64,000 bases of DNA from Gammaproteobacteria bacterium. Its GTDB lineage: Bacteria; Pseudomonadota; Gammaproteobacteria; HK1. The notes under the pieces are model-generated. The model ran no database searches, was not told the origin of the DNA, and was given only the letters and a program-made list of their open reading frames with translations. The DNA lies in assembly GCA_021773645.1 (NCBI GenBank), contig JAJFJU010000010.1, positions 1-64,000 on the forward strand, in the 5' to 3' direction. Position 1 is the first letter of the stretch, and the number at the start of each line of letters is the position of its first letter. Positions 2,387 to 52,692 of the stretch are shown piece after piece. Both the position numbers and the translations under genes were made by a program.

Positions 2387-3171
2387 TGGGCACGCCTAAG
2401 CAAAAAAAAACTGAGGCAGAAACCTTGGTTTATGGCTGGCATGCGGTGGCTGCGGTATGGGCGAACCGGCCTAAGGGAATTAGTGGGGTATGGACCTGCA
2501 GACGTGGTAGTGACCCACGCAGTCAGGCGATCATTAGTCCCATGGCCGCGGCGGGAATCGCCATCCACCAGCTCGGTCGTCGTGATATTGATCGCATGGT
2601 AGAGGGCGCCAATCATCAGGGCATCGTCATCCGCTGTCGCGAGGCCACCGCCATTGATTGGCACGAACTGGAGGCGCGGTTGGATGTACTGCAAGAGCCG
2701 CCTTTCCTATTAGTGCTGGATGGGGTTCAGGATCCACATAATTTTGGCGCTTGTCTGCGTAGCGCCGGAGCCGTTGGCGTGCATGCGGTCATTATCCCAA
2801 AGGCCCGAAGTGCACCGCTTTCGCCAGTGGTTCGCCGTGTTGCTTGTGGGGCGGCAGAATCGGTGGCGGTGGTACAGGTCAGCAATCTGGCGCGTACCCT
2901 GCGGGCCCTTAAGGATCGGTTTATTCAGGTAGTAGGAGCCGCAGGCGAAGCCACCGAGAGTTTGTACGAGGCTGAATTAACCGGGCCGCTGGCTTGGGTG
3001 CTCGGTGCCGAGCAGCATGGTTTACGGCGCCTGACCCGGGAGCAATGCGATCAGCTGTTGTCGATTCCCATGGGTGGGGCGGTGGAAAGTTTGAACGTAT
3101 CGGTGGCCACGGGAATTTGCCTGTTTGAGGCCCAGCGTCAGCGCCTGGCTACCGCGTTGCGTACCCCATAA
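2383..3171 (+). CDS. rlmB: 23S rRNA (guanosine-2'-O-)-methyltransferase RlmB
   Basis: A SpoU/TrmH-class SAM-dependent enzyme expected to methylate the 2'-OH of G2251 in 23S rRNA. The 262 residues contain an N-terminal substrate-binding domain and a C-terminal knotted SPOUT domain. SPOUT motifs are visible: VLDGVQDPHNFGACLRSA, AWVLGAEQHGL and IPMGGAVESLNVSVATG. It overlaps rnr by ATGA, the classic rnr-rlmB pair. Two ATG codons lie side by side at the start. A run of nine A residues sits at 2402-2410, inside codons 7 to 10. Confidence 0.95.
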   Translation: MMGTPKQKKTEAETLVYGWHAVAAVWANRPKGISGVWTCRRGSDPRSQAIISPMAAAGIAIHQLGRRDIDRMVEGANHQGIVIRCREATAIDWHELEARLDVLQEPPFLLVLDGVQDPHNFGACLRSAGAVGVHAVIIPKARSAPLSPVVRRVACGAAESVAVVQVSNLARTLRALKDRFIQVVGAAGEATESLYEAELTGPLAWVLGAEQHGLRRLTREQCDQLLSIPMGGAVESLNVSVATGICLFEAQRQRLATALRTP

Positions 3172-50996: not shown

Positions 50997-51584
50997 TCAG
51001 GCGGTGTCAGCAGTCGCATCCTGTCGCCGGTCCTCGGCTTCCAGGCGCAAGATTTCCTTAAATAGATCCTGAAACTCTACCGCTACGGCTGCACCAAATA
51101 GCGGATCATCCCGCTGATTAATGCGTTCGTCTATTTCCTTCCAGTCGCTCGGTTTTAGCACCTCAAGGGCGAGCGGGAAGACCTGAACCTCTTCGGTGTA
51201 GAGGTGGCTGCGCAGGGCTTCGGCATAGTGAGTGCCCAAATGCTCGAGCGTATCGCGCAACATCAGCGCCTCATCATTGACCATGCCGCGCAGGGCATTG
51301 CGAAATTCGATTCCCTCACGGGCCAGGGATTCGTGCTCCTTCAGCAGTTTTTCCACGATATGGTGACTGCTTCCATCCAACTGCCGCAGACGACCAAATA
51401 CCAGATCTTCCTTAGGATGGTGGAAGGTGTCCGGGTAGTGGGTCAAATAATCCATGACATCAAGCATCAGCTCAAAGTCAGGCTGTTCACCAGTATGGAA
51501 GATGGCAAGCTCGGCCTCCAGGAGATCGAGCAGTTTGGCGATGTTGCGGTGTTCGGCGTTCAGCCGTTTGATGACTTCAGACAT
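50997..51584 (-). CDS. hemerythrin-like domain protein
   Basis: A 195-residue, largely helical cytoplasmic protein with spaced His/Glu residues of a di-iron hemerythrin domain: LNAEHRNIAKLL, HYPDTFHHPKEDLVF, LLKEHESL and HYAEALRSHLYTEEVQVFPL. Relatives sense or store O2, NO or iron. Its place beside fnr and cofactor genes suits an oxygen- or nitrosative-stress role, by inference. It is convergent with moaC. Confidence 0.85.
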   Translation of the reverse strand: MSEVIKRLNAEHRNIAKLLDLLEAELAIFHTGEQPDFELMLDVMDYLTHYPDTFHHPKEDLVFGRLRQLDGSSHHIVEKLLKEHESLAREGIEFRNALRGMVNDEALMLRDTLEHLGTHYAEALRSHLYTEEVQVFPLALEVLKPSDWKEIDERINQRDDPLFGAAVAVEFQDLFKEILRLEAEDRRQDATADTA

Positions 51585-51626
51585 GGGAGCCTCTGAATAT
51601 GCGTCGGTGCCGTAGCGCCGTTTTAG

Positions 51627-51786
51627 GGAAGCTTTGATTTATTCTGAGCAAAGTAGATTTTGATTCAAAATATTCAGCTTTGAGGCACTGTTCGCACGTA
51701 ATAGTCGTTCTATTGCGAAGAGCAGCAACGATAAAGCTGGATGCCTTGGGCGCAAGGTACGAGTTCATGAATAGATCAGAGCTTCC
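51627..51786. mobile_element. 160-bp MITE-like element with 5-bp target duplication
   Basis: Terminal inverted repeats GGAAGCTTTGATTTATTC (51627-51644) and the complement of GAATAGATCAGAGCTTCC (51769-51786) match at 16 of 18 positions. TTTAG flanks both ends (51622-51626 and 51787-51791) as a perfect target-site duplication. No transposase fits inside, so it would depend on one elsewhere. It fills much of the 51585-51933 gap upstream of fnr, and the remaining bases show no gene. Confidence 0.75.
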
Positions 51787-51933
51787 TTTAGGTCTGTCCG
51801 TATGGGTTGAATGATAGCGCGGAAATCTTCTCTGCGCTCGCCCTGAATGCACCGTATCCACATTCCAACGATACGGTTGATTCGCGACCGTCGAACTGGT
51901 CCAATGCATCCGGTTTCATGGAATCCTTGAACT

Positions 51934-52692
51934 ATGCTGCAAAACGCCGATCCCCTTAATCTTTGCCTGCTCAAGGTCTCTTGTGCGGACTGCACGTTGC
52001 GGGAACTCTGCCTGCCGCGGCGGCTCGAACCGATCGAGCTGACACAGCTAGAGGGCATCGTCCGCCATCGTCGTCCTTTGCAACGTGGTGAGGTGTTGTA
52101 TCGCCGAGGTGAACCTTTGCGCGCCCTTTATGCCATTCACTCTGGCTCGGTCAAAGTCCATATGCCGGCTTCCGGGGGTGGTGAACAGGTGATGGGTTTT
52201 CACCTACCGGGAAACCTGCTGGGCCTGGATGGTTGTGGAACTGATAGTTATACCTGCACCGCTATAGCCCTGGAGACCACCAGTATCTGCGAGCTCCCCT
52301 ACGCTCGACTGGAATCGCTCTGTGCCCTAGTGCCCGGATTGAATCGTGAATTTCGCCGCCTCATGGGGCGGGTTATCGGTGCCGAGCAGGCGATGTTGCT
52401 TATGTTGGGCAACAAGAAGGCGGAGGAGCGGCTGGCCTCTTTCCTGATTCACCTATCGCGGCGTTATTGTGAGCGCGGCTTTTCTCCACTGCGGTTTAAT
52501 CTCAGCATGTCGCGCCATGATATTGGCAATTATCTTGGGCTTGCCCTGGAGACGGTGAGCCGGCAGTTTGCCCATTTTCAGGAGGCGGGCTGGATCAGCG
52601 TCGATCGCCGTGAAGTTTCTATACATCAGCTTGATGCCCTGGAAAAACTGGTGACCCATACCTTGGAGGAGGAGACCGGCAATATCGCCTGA
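51934..52692 (+). CDS. fnr: FNR/ANR-type anaerobic transcription regulator
   Basis: An oxygen-sensing CRP-family activator with a [4Fe-4S] cluster. 252 residues. Cluster ligands are C17, C20, C26 and C119 (SCADCTLRELC, and C in TTSICELPY), in the E. coli FNR order. A cyclic-nucleotide-like roll is followed by the recognition helix in MSRHDIGNYLGLALETVSRQF (E and SR contacts), specific for TTGAT-N4-ATCAA. Such boxes occur before hemN and the dihaem cytochrome gene nearby. Confidence 0.93.
   Translation: MLQNADPLNLCLLKVSCADCTLRELCLPRRLEPIELTQLEGIVRHRRPLQRGEVLYRRGEPLRALYAIHSGSVKVHMPASGGGEQVMGFHLPGNLLGLDGCGTDSYTCTAIALETTSICELPYARLESLCALVPGLNREFRRLMGRVIGAEQAMLLMLGNKKAEERLASFLIHLSRRYCERGFSPLRFNLSMSRHDIGNYLGLALETVSRQFAHFQEAGWISVDRREVSIHQLDALEKLVTHTLEEETGNIA

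Follow-up and report, generated by a model that had tools for sequence, protein, structure and literature searches.

A MITE of IS5 type upstream of fnr and the structured RNA probably carried by its family

Results

Insertion between a hemerythrin-domain gene and fnr

The locus lies in a window of 64,000 nucleotides (the whole stretch of DNA that was analysed) from a gammaproteobacterial genome, where a hemerythrin-domain gene (PF01814; positions 50,997–51,584, minus strand) and fnr (NF008365; 51,934–52,692, plus strand) diverge. Between them, a complete 160-bp MITE of IS5 type (51,627–51,786, plus strand) was delimited by BLAST copies, alignment, and folding. Its distance to the start codon is 42 bp for the hemerythrin-domain gene and 147 bp for fnr; the 142 bases given for the latter in the first-pass annotation hold when counted from the right-hand TTTAG, not from the element itself. 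The left terminal inverted repeat, GGAAGCTTTGATTTATTC (51,627–51,644, plus strand), was identified by reading the letters and by a motif scan, and IS5-family elements end in a similar motif. The right one, GAATAGATCAGAGCTTCC (51,769–51,786, minus strand), is its imperfect inverse with 16 of 18 positions matching, and 124 bases separate the two ends. TTTAG was read on both sides, at 51,622–51,626 and 51,787–51,791. The letters bear out the earlier description of 160 bases with 18-base inverted ends (16 matches) between TTTAG repeats. As for the 5-bp duplication also described there, the repeat is present, but the duplication in the family is 4 bp, mostly YTAR; TTTAG is here either a slightly longer duplication or TTAG with a chance T.

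The inverted repeat is not confined to the ends, as the entire length of the element is a single imperfect palindrome. Its conserved 60-nt apical core (51,678–51,738, plus strand), common to elements across the phylum, scored 68.6 bits with a core model. The element is short and has no transposase gene, and an overlapping 110-aa ORF had no Pfam match. A repeat search with default settings listed no pair. When up to two mismatches were allowed, the end motif occurred 37 times in forward and 38 times in reverse orientation in this genome, and the reversed-pattern control gave 0 and 0. These counts and the BLAST copies indicate that the inverted ends are beyond chance.

Locus alignment revealed that both congeners (termed G001 and G002; this genome is G000) have the same two flanking genes and no element, with a spacer continuous through the target. 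Identity and position mark these two genomes as the MAGs OFTM98 and OFTM50. Therefore, we concluded that the element is an insertion gained in, or retained only in, this lineage; comparison of the fnr upstream regions gave no sign of conservation of the element at this place. The earlier call of a MITE-like insertion was thus confirmed by the empty site in two congeners, the many copies, and the IS5-type ends and target. It had also been suggested that the element supplies or disrupts promoter elements of fnr. This part was not supported: the upstream blocks conserved in the three species sit uninterrupted between the element and fnr, and no promoter-like site was found in 51,560–51,960 by a simple sigma-70 scan, which is weak evidence. 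On the hemerythrin side (51,584–51,627), the spacer is uninterrupted in the congeners, and the insertion, 42 bp from the start codon, may have displaced the promoter of that gene. A displaced promoter, if any, would more likely be that of the divergent hemerythrin-domain gene than that of fnr. At this locus, the element is probably a passive insertion in the joint upstream region.

Copies in the genus and their target sites

Full copies, for which the first-pass annotation had proposed a genome search, were numerous: BLAST with the 160 bases detected at least 38 matches in this genome (76–100% identity; best 40 of 53 candidates), and the mean pairwise identity of 37 aligned copies was 85%. The same query gave nine matches in G001, one of them partial. 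In G002, at least 41 matches at no fewer than 40 places, one being a second-strand repeat, were obtained with a consensus query (best 40 of 77 candidates). The remaining 52 of the 55 relatives searched had no copies. The set of 76 copies (38 from this genome, 8 from G001, and 30 from G002) leaves out the 70-bp partial copy of G001, short second-strand matches, and 11 of the 41 G002 matches that had no locus.

The 4-bp flanks matched exactly in 18 of the 76 copies and at three or more positions in 50, compared with means of 7.1 (maximum 17) and 27.0 (maximum 40), respectively, in 1000 shuffles of the right flanks among copies. YTAR occurred on at least one side of 52 copies, the commonest flanks being TTAG and CTAA. 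By a simple ORF call, 73 of the 76 copies had no ORF overlap of more than 60 bp. Gene 3′ ends facing a copy were within 15 bp of it in 44 of 60 cases, and 5′ ends in 21 of 80. Since TAA and TAG lie within YTAR, closeness to stop codons is also predicted by the target, and insertion at YTAR with duplication could leave the stop codon intact. The orientation of the neighbouring genes was −− for 25 copies, −+ for 19, ++ for 16, and +− for 7, and incomplete or overlapping for 9.

Short deletion forms, which have both ends and have lost the core, were also observed: approximately 58 bp in G002 (L159, 1501–1558, and similar places) and approximately 70 bp in G000 (L070, near 1400–1485). At least seven end pairs of the very short form were present in G002. 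Solitary ends at L069–L071, L150, and L156 were rejected as candidates, being either single ends by unrelated sequence or the short deletion form. One copy (L010, 1501–1660) is placed exactly in the middle of a terminator-like host inverted repeat, GCGGGAAGTATA / TATACTTCCCGC.

IS5-family elements with similar ends

As all copies seen lacked a transposase of their own, the link to the IS5 family is drawn from the ends and the target only; by these tested features, similar ends and the YTAR target, the element is a MITE of IS5 type. Viral contigs were scanned with the end motif, and six had one match each. One of these six, L165, carries an intact 1.19-kb IS with ends GGAAGGTCTGATTAATTC / GGAAACTCTGATTTATTC and CTAG on both sides, and its transposase (318 aa) belongs to the IS5 family (PF01609 and PF05598; NF033581, 356 bits). 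Of 55 genomes, 10 contained relatives of this transposase; the ends of several of these relatives are of the same kind, and their flanks are YTAR-like. IS5-family elements with ends similar, not identical, to those of the MITE were found at L165, L168–L170, and L172. An IS with the same ends, which the first-pass annotation had proposed to look for, was not found in this genome, but these elements elsewhere have similar ends.

No relative of the L165 transposase was detected in G000 or G001, and G002 had only broken pieces between decayed ends. The sole PF01609 gene of G000 has ends other than those of the MITE. A parental IS was not seen in the genus, as no end-motif pair approximately 1 kb apart occurred among the matches listed. 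In contig 30 of G002, a decayed IS5-family element (L175, 880–1982) has broken transposase frames and recognisable ends, and is possibly the last relic of the mobilising element in the genus. The sequence features suggest that the present copies may be mobile and that an IS5-family transposase may mobilise them.

Among seven IS with both ends readable, the first six bases were alike at the two ends in one, so the transposase seemingly needs no matched ends. Position 5 of the ends was complementary between the two ends in 56 of the 76 MITE copies.

Strand-specific fold and G-U bias

The consensus folds as one end-to-end rod, with −79.3 kcal/mol on the plus strand vs −51.7 kcal/mol on the minus strand. 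The plus strand folded better in all 76 copies (means, −72.1 vs −45.7), and it was likewise more stable in all 76 with DNA parameters (means, −29.5 vs −22.0). For the window copy, the values were −69.8 kcal/mol (z −8.8) on the plus strand and −43.7 (z −4.3) on the minus strand.

The 4850 paired cells, whose independence is overstated because the copies are related, comprised 3971 Watson-Crick, 703 G-U, 69 A-C, and 107 other cells. Parsimony on the tree of the 76 copies, which is shallow and makes the counts approximate, gave 142 changes from Watson-Crick to G-U and 57 to A-C. These counts depart from the equality expected under strand-symmetric mutation, and the G-U to A-C ratio was 105:47 on terminal branches (p 3e-6) and 37:10 on internal branches (p 1e-4). 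At unpaired sites, among which C and T sites are few (4 and 2), no such bias was observed: 43 changes at 19 sites were of the G-U-making type and 57 at 12 sites were of the other type. Keto-biased mutation pressure was rejected by these sites as the source of the bias. The excess was small (46 G-U vs 34 A-C) when each derived letter in a column contributed a single count to the changes from Watson-Crick pairs. Split by the number of copies sharing a change, the ratio was 12:8 for one copy (with 32 transversions), 12:15 for two or three, and 22:11 for four or more. On terminal branches, it was 25:10 where both neighbouring genes are on the plus strand and 34:13 where both are on the minus strand (Fisher p 1.0). 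Host-gene-driven selection on the strand was rejected, since the G-U bias is independent of neighbour direction.

In a MAFFT alignment made without structure, 18 pairs had changed on both sides vs 8.6 ± 1.9 after shuffling; none of 500 shuffles, which also overstate the independence of these related copies, reached 18. Alignment columns A94, A95, A103, and A104 were unchanged in all 76 copies. Four insertions common to species had accumulated 15 pair-keeping vs 13 pair-breaking changes, which indicates that the fold is not visibly protected after landing. A fifth putative shared insertion (L068/L119) was dropped, as it has inverted flanks that are not directly adjacent to the element. The pattern agrees more with selection on the multiplying copies than with selection on each landed copy.

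Relatives across the class

A covariance model built from the 76 copies was run on 274 genomes of the class, with 10 candidates scored per genome. It matched 47 genomes (36 of 221 genera) at E ≤ 0.001 per genome, and 32 genomes under 25 family labels at 1e-10. In a further 32 sources totalling 221 kb, among them IS loci and 18 named loci, it found only the window copy, on both strands.

Sixty-one matches from 60 loci of 29 genomes, together with four genus matches, were aligned in 65 rows (alignment A3), leaving out second-strand matches and model matches below threshold. In this alignment, 93.3% of cells pair and 58 of 64 pairs have changed on both sides. The cells changed on both sides numbered 656 vs 149 ± 12.5, and the covariation score was 0.545 vs 0.187 ± 0.006. 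G-U exceeded A-C in all 65 rows (435 vs 64 cells), a comparison that favours G-U by construction because the rows were fitted to the model and the better-scoring strand was taken for each match. After removal of near-duplicates and the genus rows, 32 rows with a mean identity of 0.57 contained 199 G-U and 41 A-C cells.

A 4-bp duplication was exact in 30 of the 65 matches and agreed at three of four positions in 46, and 45 had YTAR on a side. For the 61 relatives outside the genus, the gene orientation was −− in 22, ++ in 13, +− in 11, and −+ in 8, with 7 incomplete; 57 of them had no overlap of more than 80 bp with an ORF of 100 aa. Rfam gave no match for the window or for 10 loci of relatives. 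Plasmid searches with the window copy and two relatives returned nothing, and a sequence-string search of the literature gave nothing relevant among the matches listed. In one genome (G209), L204 and L246 have a slippage-like duplication of the hairpin tip in which GGCTATTGCG is repeated, and L204 also contains N there.

The apical core with other ends and a longer form

The longest conserved stretches are in the apical 60 nt (CAAGGCG....GCA.GTAATAG....CTATTGC.AAG....AACGCAG). This core was found between wholly different ends at L231. Of 398 phylum genomes, 91 had a match to a core-only model at E ≤ 0.001; they represent 44 of 213 genera and include members of families outside the class. The weaker matches of this model may be other hairpins. 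Thirteen of 17 loci of a second type had outer inverted repeats approximately 264–281 bp apart, of several unrelated sequences; L275, one of the 17, has a beginning like that of the first type. In 5 of 33 sources, a further core lay approximately 100 bp away on the opposite strand. In the stability test of this longer form, which covered 14 of the 17 loci with three left out, the more stable strand was the plus strand for arm 1 in 11 (p 0.011) and the minus strand for arm 2 in 10 (p 0.025). The strand asymmetry is mirrored as expected but weak, approximately 4 kcal/mol per arm.

The core is carried by plasmids from Azotobacter chroococcum NCIMB 8003 and Halomonas sp. PA16-9 and, going by its listing alone, by one from Pseudomonas aeruginosa. 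Phage sequences searched with the longer form gave no match, and a core pattern had no exact occurrence in the viral contigs. Elements of approximately 270 bp were observed at L253, L254, L264, L279, L280, L238 (around 1085–1145), and L193 (around 2834–3091). They comprise a core hairpin, a small CCCGAAGGG-like hairpin, and a second arm, which in some bears the opposite-strand core; their outer ends differ, and several start at CTAG.

A tentative reading, possible though short of probable, is a phylum-wide mobile RNA family in which one selected, strand-specific core was repeatedly given different ends and travels on different transposases. It would comprise the 160-bp single-rod and the approximately 270-bp two-core forms, and the RNA, not the ends, would define it.

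Discussion

We propose that the element probably belongs to an IS5-type MITE family carrying a conserved strand-specific structured RNA, the fold of which helps the element to persist or spread. An IS5-family transposase would move the non-autonomous MITE in trans by acting on the GGAANCTCTGATYTATTC ends, and the MITE would land in YTAR sites, often beside the stop codons of neighbouring genes. The plus strand is predicted to form a conserved rod of approximately 160 nt in which the apical core (60 nt) is very conserved and the internal loops are rich in purines. Pairing in this rod is maintained by compensatory changes and by more G-U changes on that strand than expected, both within the genus and across the class. 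At some step, the plus strand would be transcribed or exposed as a folded single strand, and the whole would act like a structured mobile RNA element. The fold may aid the persistence or spread of the element itself and not the regulation of each neighbouring gene, as the strand bias is the same whatever the direction of the neighbouring genes and, at shared sites, pair-breaking changes after insertion are roughly as frequent as pair-keeping ones.

An unlikely alternative, to which we give the most weight among the rivals, is that a folded single strand of DNA, such as an intermediate of transposition or replication, is under constraint and RNA is not; the authors of a similar motif raised the same possibility (PMC11109978). 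The greater stability of the plus strand with DNA parameters in 76 of 76 copies agrees with it. However, the ends used in IS5-type transposition are generally considered to be double-stranded, and conserved GA-rich loops, like frequent G-U pairs, are found more typically in RNA.

Also unlikely, and ranked next, is an ordinary foldback MITE, whose palindrome arose from inverted duplication of an IS end and whose matched arms are maintained solely at the DNA level, for example by template switching from one arm to the other, RNA playing no part. Palindromic structure is common among bacterial MITEs, and arm-to-arm correction gives compensatory changes, for example the in-place C-G to G-C swap in L020/L083. 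In addition, IS ends vary at the same positions, and the G-U excess per column is small (46:34). Against this, arm correction would produce perfect pairs without a G-U preference on one strand, unlike the 142:57 found by parsimony and the 703:69 among cells. Moreover, the core sequence and purine loops are conserved despite breaking the palindrome (for example, A94, A95, A103, and A104), and the two ends are complementary at position 5 in 56 of 76 copies, whereas the first six bases are alike at both ends in one of seven IS.

We consider it more doubtful still that the hairpins are host regulatory RNA, acting in the 3′ or 5′ regions of mRNA as sites for RNase III or RNase E, in the manner of Correia and ERIC, and retained because selection acts on the adjacent genes. 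Roles of this type have been described for Correia and ERIC (PMC10969869; PMC2229807), and 44 of 60 facing gene 3′ ends are within 15 bp. This proximity to stop codons is, however, also expected from the YTAR target; the gene orientation is mixed in the 76 genus copies and the 61 elsewhere, and the strand bias is independent of the direction of the neighbouring genes. Maintenance of the element as a regulator of fnr, suggested by its position upstream of that gene, was rejected as highly improbable because both congeners lack it at this locus, although their other upstream blocks are conserved.

Bacterial MITEs are usually regarded as internally deleted transposons with a meaningless interior. 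In the MITE family described here, the interior is the most conserved part and is apparently constrained on one strand, across dozens of genera and with partly differing ends. If the RNA is real, it would be a small selfish RNA gene that borrows transposases, and one could then test if folding of a transcript promotes the spread of a non-autonomous transposon. The family would also offer structural work an abundant RNA family that has no Rfam entry, and for annotation it accounts for dozens of intergenic repeats in genomes such as the present one.

Correia/NEMIS and ERIC have sequences and ends different from those of the present element. They resemble it as small, mostly intergenic mobile palindromes whose transcripts fold and can be processed, but each is tied to its own host groups, and the available text of the two reports describes no strand-specific conserved core of the present kind (PMC10969869; PMC2229807). 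According to the accessible part of the report on MITEPsy1, this IS5-related MITE of Pseudomonas syringae was trapped moving in vivo and is thought by its authors to be moved by the IS5-family ISPsy2 (PMC3189936). Like the present element, MITEPsy1 has 18-nt ends, one side of which begins GGAAGGTCTGA, and a 4-bp duplication at CTAG or YTAA; unlike it, MITEPsy1 is 100 nt rather than 160 nt long and has six copies in that strain (PMC3189936). Close copies are in a few pathovars, and its authors note similar sequences in other bacteria; the same part of the report describes no structure, whereas the element here has a conserved interior fold (PMC3189936). MRSC-65-2, as outlined in the portion of its report consulted (PMC11109978), is a similar but distinct motif: it shares with the present family one long covarying stem, a copy number that often reaches dozens in a genome, and a presumed selfish nature. 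It includes a conserved repeat, UYCCGG; among the 61 relatives here, one contains this repeat on the plus strand. That portion counts 250 mobile or repeat candidates (PMC11109978), and the present family may be among them.
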